A stretch of 64,000 bases of DNA from Aliiroseovarius halocynthiae (GTDB taxonomy: Bacteria; Pseudomonadota; Alphaproteobacteria; Rhodobacterales; Rhodobacteraceae): assembly GCF_007004645.1 (NCBI RefSeq), contig NZ_ML660023.1, forward strand, positions 62,001 to 126,000, in the 5' to 3' direction. Below are positions 8,297-58,168 of the stretch, in pieces (position 1 is the stretch's first letter; every line of letters starts with the position of its first letter). A program made the translations under genes and the position numbers. Below the pieces are notes generated by a model. That model did no database searches, was not told where the DNA came from, and saw nothing but the letters and a program-made list of their open reading frames with translations.

Positions 8297-9446
8297 GAAT
8301 TGGCAAATTGGCGGCTTTGGGCTGTATGTCCACTGGCCCTTCTGCGCTGCCAAATGCCCCTATTGCGATTTCAACAGCCATGTCTCGGCATCGATTGATC
8401 AAGATGATTGGGCCGCGGCTTATCTGAAAGATTTGGATCGCTACGGTGCCGAAACGCAGGGCCGCACCCTGTCGTCAATCTATTTCGGTGGCGGCACGCC
8501 CAGCCTTATGAACCCGTCGACGGTGGCTGCCATCATCGATAAGGCGTCCGATCTTTGGACATTTGCCAACGACATCGAAATCACGCTCGAGGCCAACCCA
8601 ACATCCATCGAAGCCCAGAACTTCGCGGGATATCGCGACGCCGGGGTCAACCGTATCTCGATGGGATTTCAGGCGCTGAACGACGTTGATCTGCGGAAAC
8701 TCGGACGCATGCACTCGGTCGACGAAGGGCTTCGTGCGTTGGAAATCGCCCGCACACATTTTTCCCGTGTGAGCTTCGACTTGATCTATGCCCGCCAAGA
8801 TCAAAGCCTGCCCGACTGGAAGGTCGAACTTGATCGCGCGCTTAACTTTGAGCCCGATCACCTGTCGCTCTATCAACTGACCATCGAACCCGGCACCGCC
8901 TTCGGTGCGCGGTTCGATGCCGGAAAACTGTCGGGCCTTCCAGAAGAAGATCTAGCCGTCGACATGTTCTTCCATACGCAAGAGGCCACGGCCAAGGCCG
9001 GGCTTCCCGCCTATGAGGTTTCGAACCATGCACGTCCGGGTGAAGAAAGTCGGCACAATTTGATCTATTGGCGCAGCGGCGATTGGATCGGCGTTGGACC
9101 CGGAGCACACGGCCGGCTGACTTTTGGGCGGAACAGGTGGGGAACGGAAACCCCTCTCTCGCCGAGCAAATGGTTGGAAAACGCACTGGGGGACGTTGAC
9201 AAGCGCGAGAGAGCACCTCTGCCTTCGTCAGAGCAGGTAACAGAATACCTTTTAATGGGGCTTCGAACCCGCGAGGGCATCGACCTTGTACGACTTCAGG
9301 AACAGTTCGACAGCCTACTAGATGCTAGTAAAATCAATGGCTTAGAAGAAATGGGCTTGATTTCTTCGACTCCAGAAAAACTTAGGGCGACCGATGAAGG
9401 CCGCCCCGTTTTGAATGGTATTTTGCGAGAGCTTTTGCCGGGCTAA
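8289..9446 (+). CDS. hemW: Heme chaperone HemW (radical SAM)
   Basis: A radical SAM protein of the HemN/HemW family. The CX3CX2C cluster-binding motif is C19-C23-C26 in [10 protein letters not shown]. The residue after CPYCD is F, not the extra cysteine of true HemN, and the 385-residue length also favours HemW, which hands heme to target proteins, over coproporphyrinogen dehydrogenase. IYFGGGTPS and the C-terminal winged-helix-like region ([14 protein letters not shown]) are present. The only in-frame upstream start is TTG, overlapping the rdgB end by eight bases. The 3' end overlaps parB by four bases, tail to tail. Confidence 0.92.
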
Positions 9447-10330
9447 ACAGACAGTTTTCCGCAGATATCGTCCAGTTGATCGAGGTTTTGATAGCGAATT
9501 GTCACCACGCCCGCCTCGCCGCCTGCTTTGTGATCAATCTGAATTTTCATCCCCGTGGCCGCCGACAGATCCGCCTCAAGCGCTTTGGTGTCGGCATCTT
9601 TCTCGGTCTTCGGGCCAGCCGCGCGTGGCTTGCTGGGTCCGGGGCCTTTCGCCAGCTTCTCGGCCGCGCGCACTGACAGACCTTTGCTGATAATCTCTCG
9701 TGCCAAAGCCGAGGCATTGTCGGCGGTGACCAGTGTCCGGGCATGTCCGGCCGTCAGCTTCCCATCGCGCACAAAGCTTTGTACATCGTCTGGCAGGTTC
9801 AGAAGGCGCAGCAGGTTGGCGATATGCGAACGGCTTTTACCCAAAGCCTCGGACACTTTTTCCTGCGTATGGCCAAAACGATCCATAAGATCGCGATAGC
9901 CGGCAGCCTCTTCAATCGCGTTCAACTCGGCACGTTGAATGTTCTCGATAATCGCGACTTCCAAAGCTTCGGTGTCGCTATATTCCCGAACAATGACGGG
10001 CAGCTCGTGCAGCTTGGCCATCTGTGACGCGCGCCAACGGCGTTCGCCTGCAACAATTTCGTACTCGTCTTCACTTCCAGGGCGCGGACGAACGATCAAG
10101 GGCTGAATGACGCCCTTTTCCTTCACGGATGCAGCAAGATCATCCAACTGTTCCTGAGTGAAGGTCCGGCGCGGCTGCTCGGGATTCGGTTTAATTTTCT
10201 CGATCGGCACCATCAAATCCGCGCGGCGCGGCTCGGACGTCACGCCTTTCGGAGCCTCATCAACAGCGACATCTGCCATCAAAGCTGACAAGCCGCGGCC
10301 CAAACCGCGATTTTTTTGTGATTTGCTCAT
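9443..10330 (-). CDS. parB: Chromosome partitioning protein ParB
   Basis: The CTP-dependent clamp that loads at parS and spreads along the origin region. The 295-residue protein begins with the usual short basic tail (RGLGRGLSALM). It has the CTP-binding GERRWR box at 95-100 and ENIQR at 129-133, a helix-turn-helix near 154-175 (TQEKVSEALGKSRSHIANLL), and a C-terminal dimerisation domain ending DQLDDICGKL. It is 13 bases downstream of parA. Two perfect parS sites lie upstream in the same gene block. Confidence 0.97.
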   Translation of the reverse strand: MSKSQKNRGLGRGLSALMADVAVDEAPKGVTSEPRRADLMVPIEKIKPNPEQPRRTFTQEQLDDLAASVKEKGVIQPLIVRPRPGSEDEYEIVAGERRWRASQMAKLHELPVIVREYSDTEALEVAIIENIQRAELNAIEEAAGYRDLMDRFGHTQEKVSEALGKSRSHIANLLRLLNLPDDVQSFVRDGKLTAGHARTLVTADNASALAREIISKGLSVRAAEKLAKGPGPSKPRAAGPKTEKDADTKALEADLSAATGMKIQIDHKAGGEAGVVTIRYQNLDQLDDICGKLSV

Positions 10331-10343
10331 AACTCGCCTCCGA

Positions 10344-11135
10344 TTACCGTTTGATCAGCTCTGACGCCAAATCGCGATAGGCTTGGCTACCCTTGGAGGT
10401 CGGATCATACATCAACACCGGCAGGGCGAAAGAGGGTGCTTCGCTTACCCGCACATTGCGCGGAATTACGGTCTCAAACACCAGCTCACCCAAATTTTCC
10501 CGGGCATCCAGTTCAACCTGTCGCGATAGGTTGTTGCGAGCATCATACATGGTCAGAACCACGCCTTCGATTCGCAGATCCTGATTGGCCGCAGCCCGCA
10601 CTTCGCGCACCGTCAAAAGTAGTTGAGACAGCCCTTCCAACGCGAAAAATTCACTTTGCAGCGGGATCAGAACGCTGTCTGCCGCAACAAGCGCATTCAC
10701 AGTCAGAAGGTTCAATGACGGTGGGCAGTCAATCAAGATATAGTCGATGCGCAGATCCGCTAACGCTACATCTCGCAGAGCATCACGCAAAAGATGGCTG
10801 CGTCTTTCATTCGAGACCAGTTCAATATCGGCCGAAGACAGATCCGTTGTAGCGGGTGAAATCATTAGATCATCGATCTCGGTCTTCTTCAGAACCTCAA
10901 GGATCGACGCCTCTTCCAGCAAAAGATCATAGGTGCTCATCTCACGGTCATCTACTGCGATTCCAAGCCCTGTTGAAGCATTGCCCTGAGGGTCCAAGTC
11001 GATCAGCAGAACGCGTTTTCCGGCTTCTGCCAATGCCGCGCCAAGATTGATTGTTGTTGTTGTCTTCCCTACCCCGCCCTTCTGGTTGGTGATGGCAATA
11101 ATCTTCGGCCCGCGATCATGAAATGGGTCAGACAC
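10344..11135 (-). CDS. parA: Chromosome partitioning ATPase ParA
   Basis: The Walker-type ATPase that moves ParB-parS complexes apart. With the start chosen here it is 263 residues, with the deviant Walker A KGGVGKTT at 19-26 (signature lysine K19) and Walker B-like DYILIDCPPSLNLLT further on. I place the start at GTG (MSDPFHDRG) because GGAG lies nine bases upstream; the alternative TTG, five codons earlier, has no such site. The start overlaps the rsmG end by eight bases. Confidence 0.96.
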   Translation of the reverse strand: MSDPFHDRGPKIIAITNQKGGVGKTTTTINLGAALAEAGKRVLLIDLDPQGNASTGLGIAVDDREMSTYDLLLEEASILEVLKKTEIDDLMISPATTDLSSADIELVSNERRSHLLRDALRDVALADLRIDYILIDCPPSLNLLTVNALVAADSVLIPLQSEFFALEGLSQLLLTVREVRAAANQDLRIEGVVLTMYDARNNLSRQVELDARENLGELVFETVIPRNVRVSEAPSFALPVLMYDPTSKGSQAYRDLASELIKR

Positions 11136-11748
11136 GTGCGATTTCTCCAATCTTCAATACAAAGGCGTCAGGATGGGTCTTGCTGGGATATGTATCTAGC
11201 TGAAACGACCAGTTTTCAAGCGCTTCTTGAATTTCATGGCGATAGTTTTCCCCTTTTGGGAAGATCGCAACCCCGCCTGGCTTCAGATGCCGCTCGGCAA
11301 AGCCGCACAGCTTGTTTAACGGGGCCAAAGCGCGGGCGGACAGGACATCCGCACCTTGCGGATCAGCCTTTTCAATACGCTCAGATGAAACCGACAGCGT
11401 CAGATCAAGTTCGCGCGCGACGGTACGCAGAAACGTAGACTTCCTGACATCGCTTTCAATGCAGACCACACGTGCGTCGGGGTGCTGATCTTTCGCCATG
11501 ATGGCCACGACAACAGCAGGCAAACCGCCACCCGACCCCAGGTCACACCATATATTGTGGTCTTCGGGTACAAGGCCATATATCTGCGCGGAATCCAAGA
11601 TGTGCCGGGACCAGATCTGCGAAATCGTACTTGGTGCAACCAGATTGATTGCCGGGTTCCATTTTTTCATCAATGCAACATACGCCTCGAGTCGCTCGAA
11701 TGTTTCACGTGAAACATCGACTTGGCGCGAAAATCCGGCGTAGTTCAT
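11128..11748 (-). CDS. rsmG: 16S rRNA (guanine-N7) methyltransferase RsmG
   Basis: Methylates N7 of a guanine in the 530 loop of 16S rRNA (also called GidB). The 206-residue protein has the SAM-binding [15 protein letters not shown], followed by [17 protein letters not shown] and [14 protein letters not shown], all typical of RsmG. Its ATG overlaps the mnmG stop (ATGA), and its end overlaps parA, so mnmG-rsmG-parA-parB is one tight unit. A perfect parS palindrome lies inside its first 17 codons. Confidence 0.96.
11701..11716. promoter_or_regulatory. parS: parS centromere site (inside rsmG)
   Basis: A perfect 16-bp match to the universal chromosomal parS, TGTTTCACGTGAAACA. It is palindromic and lies within the rsmG coding sequence, about 570 bases upstream of the parA start and 5.1 kb from the putative oriC. 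ParB would bind here and spread. Confidence 0.95.
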
Positions 11749-13613
11749 GCAGAGCGCTTCCGTTCGAACTGTCGAATCTTTGACAACAAAAGCGTCAAAG
11801 CGGCCGGTGTCATGCCTTCAACGCGGCTGGCATGGGCCAATGTACGCGGACGAGCGGCTTGTAGTTTTGATGCCAGCTCGTTTGAGAGGCCGCTGAACCC
11901 AGAATAGTCAAAATCATCCGGGATTACATGCGCCTCATCCCGTTTCAAGGCCTCGACATCCTTCTGTTGGCGGTCGATATAATTCGCATAAAGCGCATCT
12001 CGGGCGACCTGAAGCTGAACTTCCCCGTCAATTTCAAAGAGCGCTGGATCTAGTTTTACTAGCTTATCAAAGCTCATATCTGGAAAGGCTAGAAGCTCAT
12101 AAGCTGTTCGGCGGGTACCATCCTTGCGTACATTGAGGTCCAAACCCACAAGATCTTGTGGAGTATAGGTCGTTTGCGTCAACTGGTCTTTGGCGCGTTC
12201 CAATGCGTCACGCTTGGCCTGAAACGTGGATTTTCGCGCTTCTTTCACCAAGCCAAGATCGATTCCCAACGGTGTCAGGCGCTGATCTGCATTATCTGCA
12301 CGCAGTGACAATCGATACTCGGCACGTGACGTGAACATCCGGTAAGGCTCGGTCACCCCGCGCGTGATCAAATCATCAACCATTACCCCAATATAGGAAG
12401 ACGCACGCGAAAAGATCACAGGATCCCTGCCCTGAACCGCAAGTGCGGCGTTGGTTCCGGCAACCAACCCTTGCGCCGCTGCTTCCTCATATCCTGTTGT
12501 GCCGTTAATCTGGCCAGCTAAGTACAGCCCCGGCACATCCCGCAATGCCAGTGTTTCTGTCAGTGACCGCGGATCGACATAGTCATATTCAATCGCATAT
12601 CCGGGCTGAAGAATTTCAACATTCTCAAGTCCACCGATCGAGCGCACGTAATCTTCCTGCACTTCCACCGGCAGCGACGTGCTGATCCCATTGGGATACA
12701 CTGTGTCATCATCCAGCCCCTCTGGCTCCAAGAAGACCTGGTGGCTGTCTTTGTCCGCGAAACGTACAATTTTATCTTCAATCGAGGGGCAATAGCGCGG
12801 GCCAACACCGTCAATATGACCGCCATACATGGCCGAGCGATCCAGATTTGCACGAATGATGTCGTGAGTTTGCGCATTCGTGTGTGTGATCCCACACGAA
12901 ATCTGCCGCGCGATTGGCGCCTTGTTCATAAAGGAAAACATCGCTGGATCGTCATCGCCTGGCTGCGACGCCAGAATATCCCAATTGATGGTCTTCCCGT
13001 TCAAACGCGGTGGCGTGCCGGTTTTTAGTCGGCCAAGCGGAAGTCCAAAGGAATCAATGCGCTCCGCCAGCTTGACCGAGGGACGATCCCCCATCCGACC
13101 GCCTTGGCTTTGCTTGTCGCCAATATGGATAATGCCGCGAAGGAACGTGCCTGTGGTCAGCACCACAGCGCCTGCGAGCAACTGCGACCCGTCCTGAAGC
13201 ACAACACCGCTAACGCGATTGCCGTCCATGATCAGGTCAGTCGTTTCGCCTTCGATCAGAGTCAGACCGTCGGTCGACAGAATCTCGGCAGACATGGCTT
13301 TGCGATAGATTGCGCGGTCTGCCTGCGCCCGTGGGCCTTGTACAGCGGGACCTTTACGGCGGTTAAGCAACCTGAACTGAATGCCTGCCTGATCAGCGAC
13401 GCGGCCCATCAGCCCGTCCAGCGCATCAATCTCGCGCACCAAATGGCCTTTGCCCAGCCCACCAATTGCGGGGTTACAGGACATCACGCCCAAGTCTTCT
13501 TTGCGCAGTGTGATCAGCGCGGTCTTCGCACCCATACGCGCACTTGCATGGGCAGCGTCGGCACCTGCATGCCCGCCCCCAACAACAATCACATCGAAAT
13601 CCAGATGTTTCAC
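11745..13613 (-). CDS. mnmG: tRNA uridine-5-carboxymethylaminomethyl modification enzyme MnmG
   Basis: With MnmE it modifies the wobble uridine (U34) of several tRNAs; also called GidA. About 622 residues. The FAD-binding GGGHAG is at residues 12-17, and [23 protein letters not shown] and [18 protein letters not shown] are diagnostic. The start is the GTG of [11 protein letters not shown], which has GGAG eight bases upstream; GTGs further upstream are badly spaced. That initiation codon lies inside a parS palindrome, so this stretch is start region and centromere site at once. It is followed by overlapping rsmG. Confidence 0.96.
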
Positions 13614-13621
13614 GTGAAACA
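13606..13621. promoter_or_regulatory. parS: parS centromere site (over the mnmG start codon)
   Basis: A second perfect 16-bp TGTTTCACGTGAAACA palindrome. It occupies the spacer between the GGAG Shine-Dalgarno and the GTG start of mnmG and the first two codons after it, about 3.3 kb from the putative oriC. Confidence 0.95.
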
Positions 13622-13640: not shown

Positions 13641-14930
13641 TTATTTTCCCAAACAGAAGCTGGAAAAGATTTCGTCCAGAAGATGCTCTACATCGACATG
13701 GCCGACCAGACTATCAAGGGCACGGATGGCGGTTCTGATTTCTTCTGCGGCAAATTCAGCGCGCTCAGGACCGTGTTGTACCTCGATTCGCGCATCTTCC
13801 AAAGAGAACAAGGCTCGCTCCATCGCGATGCGATGCCGTTCACGCGTGGCGATCCCTGCGCCTTGAACACGGGTTTCCAGAACAGACGAGATCTTATGCA
13901 CCAGATGATCCATGCCCTGCCCGGTCTTGCCCGAGACAACCAAGTCACCAGACGCACCCAGATCGGCCTTTCCATGCACCACAAGATCATCTTTCAGCGG
14001 GTTCATCGCGGGCTGATCATCCGCACCTTCCAACAAGAAGACCCGCAGGTCTGCCCCCTGCGCACGTTCCAATGCGCGGGCAACGCCGATGGCTTCGACC
14101 TGATCATCCGTATCGCGAACCCCTGCCGTGTCCAACACCGTCACAGGAAGCCCTGCAAGCTCCATATGCACCTCGATCACGTCGCGGGTGGTGCCCGCAA
14201 TGTCCGAGATGATCGCCGCCTCACGCCCCGCCAGCGCGTTCAGAAGCGTCGACTTCCCGGCATTGGGGCGGCCAACGATGGCGACCTCAAAACCCTCGCG
14301 GATACGCTCGGCAATTCGGGTGCCCGCGGTCTCGCGCTCGAGGCTGTCCAGCGTAGCATCCAGCAGCGTGTTCACCTCGGGCGAGACATCGACGGGTACG
14401 TCTTCGTCCGCAAAATCAATGGTGGCTTCCAGCAAAGCAGCGGCCCGGATCAGGTCGGTGCGCCACGCCCCTGCCAGATCCCCCAGAGCGCCAGAGAGCA
14501 CGCCTACGGCCTGCTTGCGCTGTGCCTCGGTCTCGGCGTCCAGAAGATCGGCCAGCCCTTCCACCTGCGCCAAGTCGAGGCATTCATTCTCAAGAGCGCG
14601 GCGGGTGAACTCTCCGGGTTCTGCGGGTCGCAATCCATCTTGCTTGGACAGCTCGGCCAACACCGCGCGGACGACAGCAGTTGACCCATGCAACTGCAGC
14701 TCGGCCACGTCTTCACCTGTGAAACTTGAACCTGCTTCGAACAGCAGCACCAAGGCCTCGTCCAGCAACGTCCCGTCCGCACTTAACAAACGACGCAATC
14801 CGGCGCGGCGCGGCGCAGGTAGGTCACCGGCCAAAACACGCGCAGCCGAAAATGCATGTGGCCCGGAAATCCGGACCACGGCAACGCCCGCTTTCCCGCG
14901 GGCACTGGCAAGAGCATAGATCGTGTCCAT
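13641..14930 (-). CDS. mnmE: tRNA modification GTPase MnmE
   Basis: Partner of MnmG in wobble-uridine modification (also called TrmE). The 429-residue protein has the N-terminal folate-binding domain ([22 protein letters not shown]), a G domain inserted in a helical domain (P-loop GRPNAGKST, then SDIAGTTRD and DTAG), and ends with the essential C-terminal CLGK. It is 28 bases downstream of rho and just upstream of mnmG, the usual alphaproteobacterial order near the origin. Confidence 0.97.
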
Positions 14931-14958
14931 TGGACTAACCTATTGTTTTAGTTACGTA

Positions 14959-16230
14959 TTAGGCATTCATGGAGTCGAAGAATTCCGAGTTCGACTTGGT
15001 CTGTTTCAGCTTGGAAATCAGGAATTCGATCGCGTCTGTGGTGCCCATCGGGTTCAGAATGCGGCGCAGGACATAGGTTTTCTGAAGGTCTTTTGCATTG
15101 ACCAGCAGATCCTCTTTCCGTGTGCCCGATTTCAGAATGTCGATAGCCGGGAACACGCGCTTGTCGGCGATCTTGCGATCCAGCACGATCTCGCTGTTAC
15201 CGGTGCCTTTGAATTCTTCAAAGATCACTTCGTCCATACGCGATCCGGTATCGATCAGCGCAGTCGCGATGATGGTCAGTGAGCCGCCCTCTTCGATGTT
15301 ACGTGCCGCACCAAAGAAACGTTTGGGGCGCTGCAGCGCGTTGGCATCCACACCACCGGTCAAAACCTTACCCGAGGACGGGACGGTCGTGTTGAACGCA
15401 CGGCCCAGACGGGTGATCGAGTCCAGCAGGATCACAACGTCGCGCTTGTGCTCGACAAGACGCTTGGCCTTCTCGATCACCATCTCGGACACAGCCACGT
15501 GACGGGTCGCGGGTTCGTCGAAGGTCGAGGATACAACCTCGCCCTTCACGGACCGCTGCATGTCTGTCACCTCTTCCGGGCGTTCGTCGATTAGCAGAAC
15601 GATCAGATAGCATTCCGGGTGGTTCTTTTCGATCGAGTGAGCGATGTTTTGCAGGATCACCGTCTTACCCGTACGCGGCGGTGCCACGATCAGCGAACGC
15701 TGGCCCTTACCGATCGGCGCAACCAGATCGATCACGCGGGCCGAACGGTCTTTGATGGTTGGATCTTCGATCTCCATCTTCAGGCGTTCATCGGGATACA
15801 GAGGCGTCAGGTTGTCGAACGCAACCTTGTGCTTTGCATCTTCAGGATCGGCGAAGTTAATCCGCTCGACCTTGGTGATGGCAAAGTAGTTTTCGTTCTC
15901 GCCGGGCGCTTGAATGACCGCTTCGACAGTGTCACCGGTGCGCAGCGAATACTGGCGGATCATGTCAGGCGAAACATAGATGTCATCGGGACCGGGCAGA
16001 TAGTTTGCTTCGGGCGACCGCAGGAAGCCAAAGCCATCTTGCAGCACTTCTAGAACCCCGTCCCCGCCGATGATCCATTCTTCATCCGCACGTTCACGCA
16101 GGATCGAGAACATCATCTCGCCCTTACGCATGGTCGAGGCGTTTTCGATCTCAAGCTCTTCAGCCATGCTTACCAGTTCTTTGGGGCTTTTGGCTTTCAG
16201 GTCGGCTAGGTTTAGACGGTTTTCAGACAT
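14959..16230 (-). CDS. rho: Transcription termination factor Rho
   Basis: A hexameric RNA helicase that ends transcription at Rho-dependent sites. The 423-residue length is normal. The N-terminal helical domain ([19 protein letters not shown]) is followed by the RNA-binding cold-shock-like domain ([15 protein letters not shown]), the Walker A region [21 protein letters not shown] and [14 protein letters not shown], and the Q/R-loop region. It leads the leftward row rho-mnmE-mnmG-rsmG-parA-parB. Confidence 0.97.
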
Positions 16231-16355
16231 GGATATGCTCGGAAATAGATCACGACGGCGCTTACACGCGGTCTATGTCAAGTTGGGAAAAACGCATGGC
16301 CGGACGGCCTGCTTAGCAGGTGACATAGGCGTTGGCCGCCCATGAGTCAACAAAT

Positions 16356-16805
16356 TCAGTATTTGAAGATGACCGAGAAGACGATGACGATCATCAATAT
16401 CGTCGGTAGTTCGTTCATCATACGATAGCGTCGGCCAGTCAAAACATTGGTGCCTGACATGAAATCTTTGCGCCGGGCAGCCAGCCACATGTGAAACCAT
16501 GTCATTCCCAAGATCGAAATCCCTTTGGTCCACGGCCAGATCAGCGTCCAATCGACCACACCCGGCGTTGCCACAAGACACAGGCCAAAAATCCACGAGC
16601 TGATCATCGCTGGGTTCATGATCGCTTTCAGAAGCCGGCGTTCCATGGTCTGGAACAAATCATCTGTTTCATTGCCAGATCCCACGACTTCGACATGATA
16701 GACAAACAGGCGCGGCAAATAGAACAGGCCTGCCATCCAAGCGATGACAGATACGATATGCAGCGATTTCGTCCAGAAATACGCGTCAGTCAGAAAGTCA
16801 CCCAT
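16356..16805 (-). CDS. hemJ: Protoporphyrinogen IX oxidase HemJ
   Basis: A small membrane protein that carries out the penultimate heme step in bacteria lacking HemG or HemY. The 149-residue sequence has about four hydrophobic segments and the family's conserved histidine in SLHIVSVIAWMAGLFYLPR, plus RRLLKAIMNP and the C-terminal YRMMNELPT. AAGGGG lies seven bases before the ATG. It is the last gene before the putative origin, reading away from it. hemH at 27.7 kb and hemW at 8.3 kb act in the same or a neighbouring pathway. The 125 bases between this gene and rho contain only a small CCTGC/GCAGG hairpin. Confidence 0.9.
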   Translation of the reverse strand: MGDFLTDAYFWTKSLHIVSVIAWMAGLFYLPRLFVYHVEVVGSGNETDDLFQTMERRLLKAIMNPAMISSWIFGLCLVATPGVVDWTLIWPWTKGISILGMTWFHMWLAARRKDFMSGTNVLTGRRYRMMNELPTILMIVIVFSVIFKY

Positions 16806-17198
16806 TCTAAGCCCCTTATGTGCGCTTACGCTTCGATCTTCATAAATAAAATAAAGAATAAGAAAAGATGATGTTGTTGTTAGGCCTGTGGATAATGGGG
16901 ATTAATGACTTCTCCCGCGATTTATTCACAAGTGGATAAACACAGATCTGGATTCTGGATTGAATCGTATGGCGTTTGTTTCATGGGCATTCGCAGACAC
17001 GGAGTTTGTGGATAAGTCGCTGGATGAAATTTGGCTAAAAAGATTCGCCCACGGGGTGGGATGCGCGAAAACCAACAGTGGAAGAACTGAGAGTTTCGTC
17101 TTAGTAACAGGGGGAGTTATCCCACCTCTTGGAAGAGGGCCAAGTTATGCGCCGATTCCAAAACAGGATTACACAGAGTTTTTCCACAGGGTTATCAC
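16806..17198. other. oriC: Putative chromosomal replication origin (oriC)
   Basis: A 393-base stretch without a credible gene, lying between two gene blocks that read away from it. It holds three perfect DnaA boxes of the form TTATNCACA: TGTGGATAA at 16887-16895 (reverse), TTATTCACA at 16922-16930 (forward) and TGTGGATAA at 17007-17015 (reverse). One-mismatch boxes are at 16931-16939 (directly next to the forward box) and 17180-17188 (TTTTCCACA). The 16840-16872 part is very A/T-rich, a candidate unwinding element. GANTC sites are at 16951, 16962, 17042 and 17154. The setting (parAB, rsmG, mnmG, mnmE, rho and hemJ on one side; maf, aroE, coaE and dnaQ on the other) is the known alphaproteobacterial origin neighbourhood. 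Confidence 0.85.
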
Positions 17199-17798
17199 AT
17201 GACCACATCCTTGATTTTGGCGTCCTCATCGCAAATCCGTGCGGATCTTTTGCGAAATGCAGGTATCGGTTTTGACATCATCCCAGCCCGTATTGATGAA
17301 GAGATGATCCGCGCCTCGTTGGAAGCTGAAGGTGCCAGCCCACGTGATCTGGCGGACGCACTGGCCGAGTTCAAAGCCCGTAAGATCAGCGAAAAGCATC
17401 CGGGATCCTTGGTTCTGGGCTGTGATCAGGTGGCCGAACTGGATCAGAACGTGTTGTCAAAGCCGAAAGACCCGGCAGACGCACGCGCGCAGCTTGCTGC
17501 CATGTCTGGCAAAGTGCATCGGTTGCTCTCTGCCGCTGTGCTTTATGAAGACGGCAAACCAATTTGGCGGCATGTAGGGTTGGTTCGCCTTAAAATGCGT
17601 GAATTATCAAGTGGTTACATAGAAGATTATGTTGAACGCAACTGGGACAGCATCTGCCATTCCGTCGGCGCGTATAAACTGGAAGAAGAAGGCGTGCGCC
17701 TGTTTGCCAAAGTGGACGGCGACTATTTCAACGTGCTGGGTTTGCCCCTGACCGAGCTTCTGTCATATCTCATCGTACGAGGAGACCTGAAGATATGA
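17199..17798 (+). CDS. maf: Maf-family nucleotide pyrophosphatase
   Basis: The Maf family hydrolyses modified or unusual nucleoside triphosphates (m7GTP, dTTP, UTP and similar). The 199-residue protein begins LILASSSQIRADLLRNAGI and has LVLGCDQV and the D(S/P)ICHSVGAYKLEEEG region that match the family; which nucleotide it prefers cannot be told. It starts the operon maf-aroE-coaE-dnaQ. Its ATG is ten bases after a DnaA-like box, so its 5' region lies inside the origin. It overlaps aroE by four bases (ATGA). Confidence 0.92.
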   Translation: MTTSLILASSSQIRADLLRNAGIGFDIIPARIDEEMIRASLEAEGASPRDLADALAEFKARKISEKHPGSLVLGCDQVAELDQNVLSKPKDPADARAQLAAMSGKVHRLLSAAVLYEDGKPIWRHVGLVRLKMRELSSGYIEDYVERNWDSICHSVGAYKLEEEGVRLFAKVDGDYFNVLGLPLTELLSYLIVRGDLKI

Positions 17799-18631
17799 GC
17801 GATACACGCATCCCCCTGGCGGGCGTCATTGGAAACCCAATCGAACATTCCTTGTCCCCACGGTTGCATGGGCATTGGCTGCGCAGCATGGGGATTGTCG
17901 GACACTATATTCCGATGCGGGTAGAAAACGATGATTTGGAAACGGTCATCCGCACTCTGCCGAAAGCCGGGTTTGTTGGTCTGAATGTCACCATCCCACA
18001 TAAAGAAGCCGTATTGGCTCTTGCAGATGTGGTCACAGATCGCGCCGCGTTGATCGGGGCGGCGAATACGCTGATTTTCCGCGATGACGGTAAAATCCAC
18101 GCTGACAATACGGATGGATATGGGTTTACGCAAAACTTGCGCCAATCCGCGCCTGACTGGGCGCCAGAAACTGGGCCTGCTGCTGTTTTCGGTGCTGGTG
18201 GAGCTGCGCGGGCCATTCTGGCGTCACTTATTGAACTGGGCGTGCCCGAAATCCGTCTGTCCAACCGCACCCGCGCCCGCGCGGACGCGCTGCGTGCCGA
18301 ATTCGGCGCGCGGATTGTGGTTTATGACTGGGTTCAGGCAGGAAATATGCTGGATGATGCAGTGACGGTGGTGAATACCTCGTCGCTGGGCATGACTGGA
18401 AAACCCGCATTCCGCGTGCCTCTGGACGGGTTGAAGCCCGGTGTGGTTGTGAATGATTTGGTCTATTCCCCGCTGAAAACAGACTTCTTGCAACAGGCCG
18501 AGGCCGCCGGTTGCCATGTGGTCGACGGGCTTGGAATGCTGTTGCACCAAGCTGTTCCGGGGTTCGAACGTTGGTTTGGCATGCGCCCGGTTGTGGATGA
18601 CAGCCTTCGCCAAGCGGTTTTGGGCGTATGA
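17795..18631 (+). CDS. aroE: Shikimate dehydrogenase
   Basis: Reduces 3-dehydroshikimate to shikimate with NADPH in aromatic amino acid synthesis. The 278-residue protein has the substrate site NPIEHSLSPRLHG and NVTIPHKE (catalytic lysine), TDGYGF, and the nucleotide-binding GAGGAARAIL. It is coupled by ATGA overlaps to maf before it and coaE after it. Confidence 0.96.
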   Translation: MSDTRIPLAGVIGNPIEHSLSPRLHGHWLRSMGIVGHYIPMRVENDDLETVIRTLPKAGFVGLNVTIPHKEAVLALADVVTDRAALIGAANTLIFRDDGKIHADNTDGYGFTQNLRQSAPDWAPETGPAAVFGAGGAARAILASLIELGVPEIRLSNRTRARADALRAEFGARIVVYDWVQAGNMLDDAVTVVNTSSLGMTGKPAFRVPLDGLKPGVVVNDLVYSPLKTDFLQQAEAAGCHVVDGLGMLLHQAVPGFERWFGMRPVVDDSLRQAVLGV

Positions 18632-19224
18632 GCGGGCCGTATATTATCGGGCTAACCGGCTCGATCGGGATGGGGAAATCCACTACGGCACAAATGTTTG
18701 CAGATGCGGGCGTTCCGATTTGGGATGCAGATGCGGCGGTGCATCGGATCTATGGCGTTGGCGGCGCGGCAGTCGAACCAATCCGCAACGTCTGTCCCGA
18801 TGCAATCATTGATGGGGCCGTCAGTCGGGATGCGCTGAAAGACTGGATGTCGAATGATGCCAGTGCGCTGAAAACACTGGAAGGCATCGTGCATCCTTTG
18901 GTCGCCCAAGATCGCGCCGCGTTCTTGGCAGACAGTACCGCGCCCATTGTTCTTCTGGATATGCCGCTTTTGTTTGAAATCGGCGCGCATGAACATGTGG
19001 ATCTGGTTGTTGTTGTCTCGGCGCCTGCAGAGATTCAACGTGCCCGCGTGCTGGAACGTGGCACGATGACGGAAGCACAATTCGAGACTATTCTGGCTAA
19101 ACAGGTCCCAGATGCCGACAAACGCGCCCGCGCGGATGTGATCATTCCGACCGAAACGATGGACGGCGCGCGCGCCGCAGTGGATGAAGTCATTGCCCAT
19201 GTGAAGGAACAGTTGGATGCGTGA
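18628..19224 (+). CDS. coaE: Dephospho-CoA kinase
   Basis: Performs the last step of coenzyme A synthesis, phosphorylating dephospho-CoA. The 198-residue protein has the P-loop GSIGMGKST near residues 11-19, WDADAAVH (substrate aspartate), and LLDMPLLFE in the middle. It overlaps aroE by four bases and dnaQ by eight. Confidence 0.96.
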
Positions 19225-19948
19225 GATTGTGCTCGATACAGAAACCACCGGCTTTGATCCTGAAAGCGGTGACCGGATTGTGGAAATCGGGTGTCTTGAG
19301 CTGATGAACCACATGCCGACCGGGCGGACCTATCACCAATATATCAACCCAGAACGCGGGATGCCGGACGAGGCGTTTGGCGTTCACGGCATCGGCCCCG
19401 ACCTTCTGGCCAGCCCCCGTCCCGCTGAACCGGGCGAGGTGATTTTGAAAGACAAACCCGTTTTCAAAGAGGTTGGGCAAGCTTTTCTGGATTTTATCGG
19501 CGACGCCAAACTGGTCATTCACAATGCCAGCTTTGACATGAAATTCCTGAATGCCGAGCTGAAATGGGTGGGTTTGCCGCAGATCCCTTGGGAACGCGCG
19601 TTGGACACATTGGCGATGGCGCGCAGTAAATTTCCGGGCGCGCCCGCGTCGCTGGATGCGCTCTGCCGTCGCTATGCAATCGACAACTCGTCGCGAACGC
19701 TGCACGGCGCGCTGTTGGACAGTGAAATTCTAGCCGAGGTGTATCTTGAGCTGATCGGGGGCCGTCAGCCGGACCTTGTTTTGGCAGGTGATCAGGCGTC
19801 GGCCGGATCAAGTGAAGCAGGTGAAAACTGGCGCCCGCGCCCACGTCCTGAAGCCCTGCCCGCGCGGATCCACGAAAAAGAAACCGCCGCCCATGACGCT
19901 TTTGTAGAAAAGCTGGGCGACGGTGCAATCTGGAAGAAGTTTCAGTAA
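19217..19948 (+). CDS. dnaQ: DNA polymerase III epsilon subunit (proofreading exonuclease)
   Basis: The 3'-5' exonuclease that proofreads for DNA polymerase III. The 243-residue protein has the DEDD-family Exo I motif DTETTGFD at residues 6-13, Exo II in [13 protein letters not shown], and Exo III in [15 protein letters not shown]. The C-terminal tail (about residues 175-243) is charged and would contact the alpha subunit. It is the last gene of the maf-aroE-coaE-dnaQ operon and converges on secB with only about 20 bases between. Confidence 0.95.
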
Positions 19949-19969
19949 GTTAGCTGAAACGATGTCTAT

Positions 19970-20461
19970 TTAGCTTACCGGAGCATCTGCCTTTTCAGCA
20001 GCTGCGCGGCGCTCGATTTCGTTGCGGTACAGGGCAAGGAAATCGACAGTGTCCAGGTTCAGCGGCGGGAAGCCACCGTCACGGGTCACGTCCGACACGA
20101 TGCGACGCACAAACGGGAACAGCATGCGCGGGCATTCGATCATCAGGAACGGGTGCAGCTGCTCTTCTGGCACGTTTTCCACGTGGAAAATACCCGAATA
20201 TTCCAGCTCCATCAGGAACAGCTGTTCGCCGTTGGCCTTGTTTTTCGAGCCGATGGTGTATTTCGTGATCACTTCAAACTGGTGATCTGCTGGGCGTTTC
20301 TTGGCATCCAGCGCAACTTCGACGTTGATGTCGGGCTGAACTTCGCCCTGAACGCCTTTTTGCGCCAGAATGTTTTCAAACGACATATCACGAATAAATT
20401 GACCCAGAACCTGCATTTTAGGCGGAACGGGGGGCGTCTGTGGGGTGGCTTCGTCGGCCAT
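19970..20461 (-). CDS. secB: Protein-export chaperone SecB
   Basis: Keeps precursor proteins unfolded and delivers them to SecA. The 163-residue protein carries the SecB core (YIRD-like FIRDMSFENI, VTKYTIGSKN-type strand, HPFLMIECPRMLFPFVRRIVSDVTRDGGFPPLNLDTVDF; read here in separate segments). Two in-frame ATGs are available; I use the second (MADEATPQ) because GGAG lies six bases before it, while it abuts the first. Its partner gene secA is at 43.9 kb. Confidence 0.95.
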   Translation of the reverse strand: MADEATPQTPPVPPKMQVLGQFIRDMSFENILAQKGVQGEVQPDINVEVALDAKKRPADHQFEVITKYTIGSKNKANGEQLFLMELEYSGIFHVENVPEEQLHPFLMIECPRMLFPFVRRIVSDVTRDGGFPPLNLDTVDFLALYRNEIERRAAAEKADAPVS

Positions 20462-58063: not shown

Positions 58064-58168
58064 ATGACTAAAAAAGACCATGATGTTTTAGAATTTATAA
58101 ATTACAGATTGAATGAAATCAGCGCAGCCCTAGTGCGATGCACGCCTGTATTAAGCAGACGACAATGA
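58064..58168 (+). CDS. Possible short ORF, LexA-like N-terminal remnant (doubtful)
   Basis: A 34-codon frame, MTKKDHDVLEFINYRLNE then ISAALVRCTPVLSRRQ, in the 215-base, AT-rich gap before galU. The start faintly resembles the first helix of LexA-type winged helices. There is no Shine-Dalgarno. It may be a chance frame or a relic. Confidence 0.15.
   Translation: MTKKDHDVLEFINYRLNEISAALVRCTPVLSRRQ

Follow-up and report, generated by a model that had tools for sequence, protein, structure and literature searches.

A putative chromosomal origin with a conserved candidate unwinding element between hemJ and maf of Aliiroseovarius halocynthiae

The 393-bp gap between the divergent genes hemJ and maf of Aliiroseovarius halocynthiae is very probably the replication origin (oriC) of the main chromosome, with opening by a DnaA oligomer as the proposed mechanism. 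It lies in a window of 64,000 nucleotides (contig NZ_ML660023.1, positions 62,001 to 126,000), to which coordinates refer unless another contig is named. Within the limits of sequence evidence, it is near certain that the gap is an origin, and it is an origin of the ordinary kind. The sequence of its opening element seems to depart from the textbook form, matching a change in the DnaA that reads it. The data establish the DnaA boxes, an A/T tract, the skew minimum, the position opposite dif-like sites in congeners, the conservation of a 59-bp element and the single match of that element in each matched genome of the family. The preliminary description of the window had read the gap as oriC, and the box cluster, which is unique in the genome, the A/T tract, the skew minimum, the conserved element and the dif positions in congeners all support that reading.

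The hemJ/maf gap and its position on the chromosome

The gap is bounded exactly by the start of hemJ (16805, minus) and the start of maf (17199, plus). The three perfect TTATNCACA boxes and the two near-perfect ones attributed to it are present (Table 1); the latter have one mismatch each, and one of them stands head-to-head with the perfect box at 16922. Three perfect boxes were reached in none of 5000 dinucleotide shuffles of the gap, and five boxes with at most one mismatch in one of 5000. Perfect boxes number 31 genome-wide, fewer than the 36 sites of a reversed-pattern control, and the gap is the only site in the genome with three of them close together, and none of 20000 random placements of 31 sites brought three within 129 bp. 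The segment 16840-16872, which had been called A/T-rich, is 85% A+T. Eight 33-mers in the 64-kb window have this composition and none is higher; six of them start at 16836-16843 and two at 58086-58087. GATC occurs twice in the gap against 1.8 expected, that is, without enrichment. A structured-RNA reading of the gap was dropped, with no Rfam match found in 14000-20000 and no tRNA in the 64-kb window.

Table 1. Features of the putative origin and its surroundings (window coordinates; gap counts refer to 22 gaps of the genus and 36 of other Rhodobacteraceae genera).
Feature	Position	Strand	Remarks
parB (chromosome partition)	9443-10330	-	
parA	10344-11150	-	
Perfect parS TGTTTCACGTGAAACA	11701-11716		Presumed; palindrome matching the parS consensus
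Perfect parS TGTTTCACGTGAAACA	13606-13621		Presumed; palindrome matching the parS consensus
hemJ, left flank	16356-16805	-	
Putative chromosomal origin oriC, intergenic gap hemJ/maf	16806-17198		393 bp; boxes, shuffles, skew
A/T-rich stretch, candidate DNA-unwinding element	16836-16872		Contains the cumulative GC-skew minimum of the contig (16841)
Triplet block ATG ATG TTG TTG TTA, in phase with box 1	16868-16882	+	Variant DnaA-trio candidate
GGCC spacer, triplets to box 1	16883-16886		Same four bases as in Bacillus subtilis (accessible text of PMC8235120)
Perfect DnaA box 1 (TTATCCACA)	16887-16895	-	At most 1 mismatch in 22/22 genus gaps, 12/36 of other genera
Second box slot, abuts box 1	16896-16904	-	TAATCCCCA in the window gap, 2 mismatches
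Perfect DnaA box 2 (TTATTCACA)	16922-16930	+	At most 1 mismatch in 19/22 genus gaps, 16/36 of other genera
One-mismatch DnaA box, head-to-head with box 2	16931-16939	-	At most 1 mismatch in 11/22 genus gaps, 1/36 of other genera
Perfect DnaA box 3 (TTATCCACA)	17007-17015	-	At most 1 mismatch in 20/22 genus gaps, 21/36 of other genera
One-mismatch DnaA box (TTTTCCACA), beside the maf start	17180-17188	+	At most 1 mismatch in 22/22 genus gaps, 14/36 of other genera
maf, right flank	17199-17798	+	

The genes read outward from the gap on both sides, as the preliminary description had it: ParB, ParA, RsmG, MnmG, MnmE, Rho and HemJ to the left, and Maf, AroE and CoaE to the right. The gene names it gave are also borne out, the dnaQ position being held by an exonuclease-domain protein after CoaE. 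HemJ passed the Pfam threshold and scored 131.5 bits, just below the NCBIfam cut-off of 138.05; the closest named relatives of Maf are from Aliiroseovarius species, at 91-95% identity. Two perfect palindromes near parAB, which we take to be parS sites by their match to the consensus, lie inside rsmG and mnmG; the nearness of these sites and of parAB to the gap speaks for an origin. The dnaA gene is on a different contig from the gap. Since hemE is found elsewhere (C1:82644-83654, on contig C1 of the same genome) and PF03618 (COG1806) had no match in this genome, the borders here are hemJ and maf. The description of this region as the known alphaproteobacterial origin setting therefore holds for the neighbourhood but not for the immediate flanks, which are hemJ/maf here and hemE/COG1806 in Caulobacter.

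We then read the GC skew of the genome, a 3.39-Mb draft in 29 contigs, on contig C5, which carries the window (164,000 of its 166,853 bases), and on 20 samples of C1. Cumulative skew had been named as a check that could refute the origin. As far as the data reach, it did not: on the scale of C5 its G-C minimum falls at 16841, inside the gap. Mean skew is -0.035 to the left (38 bins) and +0.033 to the right (43 bins), although divergent genes by themselves give some local skew change. In 120-kb stretches of three near-closed congeners, which were selected around and centred on the orthologous gap, the cumulative minimum lies inside that gap in all three cases (70091, 2800768 and 291013). Even sampling round the main contigs of two of these (G011 and G006) revealed a two-arm skew pattern. 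At this coarse spacing the best origin interval was one step beside the gap (126-195 kb against a gap at 70 kb in G011, and 2836-2901 kb against 2801 kb in G006), and the interval holding the gap was second best. The terminus interval was about half a turn from the gap in the two sampled congeners, near 1.65-1.72 Mb and 1.29-1.35 Mb.

The position of dif-like sites was sought with a dif core pattern, allowing up to two mismatches. The main contig of each of the three congeners has a one-mismatch site, whose distance to the gap is 49.5%, 48.1% and 49.3% of the contig when the contig is taken as the whole chromosome. The pattern also matches elsewhere, with two mismatches in G011 (C1:293142) and with one mismatch or none on other contigs. 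The exact sites on second contigs (G006:C3:84158, G008:C2:91762 and G011:C2:96022) possibly mark chromids or large plasmids with Xer sites of their own. In A. halocynthiae we found three two-mismatch matches; C1:1326713, picked among the three for its nearness to the skew turn, lies near the plus-to-minus turn of the sampled C1 skew.

A conserved 59-bp element in the family and the class

To compare orthologous gaps, we examined 79 Maf loci and left out five with neither hemJ nor rho (by title, one from Deltaproteobacteria and four from Bacillota). The remaining 74 gaps included 16 identical copies, leaving 58 distinct gaps, 22 from the genus Aliiroseovarius and 36 from other genera of the Rhodobacteraceae. 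They are 374-429 bp long where hemJ is the neighbour and 498-555 bp long in the six with rho as neighbour. Together they contain 231 boxes with at most one mismatch, compared with 24.0 in shuffles, and 49 of the 58 have at least three. The best-conserved block is more than a box: it comprises the A/T tract, triplets of the GATGATG type, GTAGG/GGCC, box 1 and the second slot. GATGATG itself is present in 43 of the 58 blocks. The second slot reads TAATCCACA in 16 of the 58 gaps; it has at most one mismatch in 17 of the 36 gaps from other genera, usually as TAATCCACA. At 17072-17082 the window gap has CCAACAGTGGA, where CAGTGGA recurs in 25 of the 58 family gaps, and seven contain TCCACAGTGGA, a palindrome in which two half DnaA boxes face each other.

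We searched genomes with a sequence-only model of this element, 59 positions long and trained on DNA of one family, the Rhodobacteraceae. In A. halocynthiae it gave one match, in the gap (E = 1.8e-14). Of 198 family genomes, 132, A. halocynthiae included, gave exactly one match each and 66 gave none. At 33 family loci with a match, taken from the best-scoring ones, rho or hemJ was within 1.5 kb in all 33 and maf in 32. Among 289 genomes of Alphaproteobacteria the model matched 52, four of which are Rhodobacteraceae, and had no match in 237. The 26 matches examined outside the family, from best-scoring genomes, adjoin hemE, COG1806, maf or rho in 22 cases and none of these genes in four; at one of these loci COG1806 and hemE were confirmed by Pfam. 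Outside the family on which it was trained, the model thus hits the classical origin site in most cases. At some loci of other families (L248 and L253) the element lies between rho and maf, hemE and hemJ not being found in the stretch fetched.

The six gaps with rho as neighbour, where hemJ was not found, keep the A/T tract and a recognisable block, with GATGATG in three of them, and the element is therefore not tied to hemJ. For the same reason a hemJ leader was rejected as an explanation of the block. The 59-bp element, composed of the A/T tract, the triplets, GGCC, box 1 and the second slot, may be new: in the passages of open-access literature searched, we found no text on this element or on T-centred trios in Alphaproteobacteria.

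DnaA boxes are also found in promoters, and both hemJ and maf start at the gap, as would suit a regulatory cluster, be it a promoter of either gene or a DnaA titration site, in place of an origin. We consider this highly improbable. Against it stand the skew minimum at the gap in four genomes (A. halocynthiae and the three congeners), the position of the gap opposite dif-like sites in the three congeners, and the presence of the element next to rho or hemE at loci with a neighbour other than hemJ. At an origin in this gap, DnaA would bind the boxes, with box 1 and the abutting slot anchoring a DnaA oligomer. The oligomer would extend over GGCC and reach the triplets and the A/T-rich tract, grip the plus strand there and open the duplex, presumably within 16836-16886. 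Helicases would then load, and forks would be expected to depart both ways.

An origin at this place is expected and was implicit in earlier predictions across the family. What is of value is the conserved element, with which origins could be located in many alphaproteobacterial draft genomes independently of skew or gene order.

The triplet block and the DnaA that would read it

The unwinding system of B. subtilis, as set out in the accessible text of PMC8287927 and PMC8235120, consists of a DnaA box, a GGCC spacer and repeated 3'-GAT-5' triplets. In the window, GGCC comes after box 1 (TTATCCACA, minus), and the opposite strand then reads ATG ATG TTG TTG TTA in step with the box. A DnaA box beside the unwinding stretch and a short GC-rich spacer, both features of the basal system, are thus present in the form of box 1 and GGCC. 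In several other alphaproteobacterial origins the block is made of TTG/TAG repeats. We rejected reading the window as strict 3'-GAT-5' triplets, as the registers tested at spacers 0-16 contained at most one GAT and no GAT run; with no 3'-GAT-5' array, the gap falls outside the basal unwinding system as strictly defined. The published search rule requires a central A, although its authors said that trios without one may exist (PMC8287927, accessible text). This rule (at least three 3'-NAN-5' trios no more than 16 nt from a box) finds a match solely at spacer 14, TAG TAG AAA, of a kind that an A-rich strand easily yields. Judged from the sequence, the element likely works like the Bacillus unwinding system.

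For a set of gaps independent of the element model in its selection, we took hemE loci of the class from the best-scoring genomes, by hemE alone. A divergent COG1806 adjoins hemE at 27 of these 29 loci, the other two having no divergent neighbour; the element model also matched some genomes of this set. In 8 of the 27 hemE/COG1806 gaps there are T(A/T)G runs of at least three triplets, compared with 0.29 in shuffles (maximum 3 in 300), the highest value of 16 classes. GWT follows at 6, some of its runs being these repeats read in a shifted register. When the centre may be any base, TNG is the class with the most triplets in runs (51 in 13 runs, a raw count), with T at the centre of 23, A of 19, G of 8 and C of 1, so that T is about as frequent as A in these runs. 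A box-like site with at most two mismatches lies within 25 nt of 10 of the 13 TNG runs, compared with 26% of background positions.

We also asked which residues of DnaA would face the triplets, numbering them as in the B. subtilis chain of solved structure, to which they were aligned. In B. subtilis DnaA the central adenine is held by Asn187 together with Glu183, the guanine by Arg202 and Glu228, and the third base by Asn196 (accessible text of PMC10721633). The DnaA of A. halocynthiae has Tyr at the position of Asn187. We sampled 32 further alphaproteobacterial DnaAs and 23 from other classes of the phylum (a further three of the 26 loci yielded no reading frame), in both cases from best-scoring genomes. 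Residue 187 is Tyr in 30 and Phe in 2 of the former, and A in 10, Q in 8, S in 2, N in 2 and T in 1 of the latter, which represent 17 distinct segments. All 32 alphaproteobacterial proteins of this best-scoring sample have Glu at 183, Lys at 202 and Glu at 228, and Lys202 is also found in 21 of the 23 from outside. Residue 196 is K in 26, Q in 3 and R in 3 within the class, as against Asn in 18 of the 23 outside it, again among best-scoring genomes. By alignment, these residues fit a DnaA that would keep the guanine contact and have an altered contact to the middle base and perhaps to the third. We infer from this a link between the triplet variant and the change of DnaA residues.

The block may accordingly be spelled as a variant DnaA-trio array, in which an alphaproteobacterial DnaA with Tyr or Phe in place of Asn187 would read 3'-G(A/T)T-5', with T or A at the centre. 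This refines the oriC explanation and does not replace it, and we give it about an even chance. It is favoured by the order of box, GGCC, triplets and A/T tract and by the spacer, all as in the Bacillus system, by the T(A/T)G and TNG runs and their nearness to boxes, and by residue 187, which among best-scoring genomes is aromatic in 32 of 32 alphaproteobacterial DnaAs and in none of the 23 from the rest of the phylum. On the other hand, a clean T(A/T)G run was present in just 8 of the 27 unselected gaps, CNG (36) and GNC (31) runs rank next after TNG by raw count, and the Rhodobacteraceae block mostly begins ATG ATG rather than TTG/TAG. Residue 196, changed too, is a candidate alongside residue 187, and the 23 comparison proteins from best-scoring genomes amount to 17 distinct segments round the residue. 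The triplets and the DnaA residues are both class-wide characters, and their correlation therefore counts as one evolutionary event rather than repeated covariation. In B. subtilis itself, changing the trio centre to T reduces strand separation and slows opening and growth (PMC10721633, accessible text).

The A/T tract and the T-rich triplets could instead form a single-stranded unwinding element of the E. coli type, with no trio register. For this, the plus strand has TTGTTGTTAGG beside an R1-like box oriented as R1 is in E. coli. The E. coli motifs are TTGT and TTATT; the remainder of the tract here is A-rich on the plus strand, and the conserved GATGATG of the family blocks is no such motif, so that we regard this alternative as unlikely. 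Returning to variant trios, the Alphaproteobacteria as a whole might share an opening code of their own. It would consist of 3'-G(A/T)T-5' triplets (ATG/TTG-rich in Rhodobacteraceae) kept in step with a DnaA box through a GC spacer and read by a DnaA with Tyr or Phe for Asn187, mostly Lys for Asn196 and its guanine contacts kept, and would be the trio lacking a central adenine for which the Bacillus work allowed. We put this wider proposal forward tentatively, at somewhat below an even chance. How different DnaA proteins read different origins would then be reduced to one or two residues (187 and 196) and the base at the trio centre, which can be swapped in a published assay.

Comparison with known origins

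Origins of 101 Rhodobacteraceae have been predicted from DnaA boxes, the GC-disparity minimum and proximity to parAB (Kopejtka et al, 2019; PMC6699656, accessible text), and the location of the gap is thus expected. Those predictions concern the same family and use the same criteria; in the accessible text they give location only, with no conserved unwinding element described, and Aliiroseovarius is absent from the main text.

The origin of Caulobacter crescentus was mapped experimentally between hemE and COG1806 (PMC1914354, accessible text). Caulobacter Cori belongs to the same class and, in the same text, likewise has several DnaA boxes and an A/T-rich region of ~ 40 bp, and the Caulobacter order hemE/COG1806-maf is found beside the element at loci of the class. 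The window gap differs in bordering hemJ/maf instead of hemE/COG1806. We rejected a Caulobacter-style control of this gap: it contains no TTAA-N7-TTAA for CtrA and no IHF consensus in either form, the two loose CtrA sites are reached by 224 of 2000 shuffles, and GANTC, at 4 against 1.7 expected, is not outstanding (171 of 2000 shuffles reach 4; 85 against 105 over the 58 gaps). The gap thus represents the orthologous origin neighbourhood, but differs in its borders and lacks the control sites known from Caulobacter. Over the 58 family gaps, loose CtrA sites number 96 against 41 in shuffles and strict ones 8 against 2.1, the latter in four gaps; one IHF form occurs 8 times against 2.8 and the other 12 times against 10.2. 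The CtrA excess may be attributable to the A/T tract, and some genera may have CtrA or IHF sites at the origin.

The gap resembles the left half of E. coli oriC, which has its unwinding element next to a likewise oriented R1-type box, and differs in the motifs of that element, in the flanks and in having no enrichment of GATC. In layout it also resembles the basal unwinding system of B. subtilis, with box, GGCC, triplets and A/T tract in the same order and a tandem box slot (accessible text of PMC8287927, PMC10721633 and PMC8235120). Unlike B. subtilis, there is no 3'-GAT-5' array here, T is as common as A at the triplet centre across the class, and the DnaA residue aligned with the contact to the central base is Tyr. 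The candidate unwinding element resembles the Bacillus system, yet the triplets of the class tend to 3'-G(A/T)T-5' over 3'-GAT-5'.
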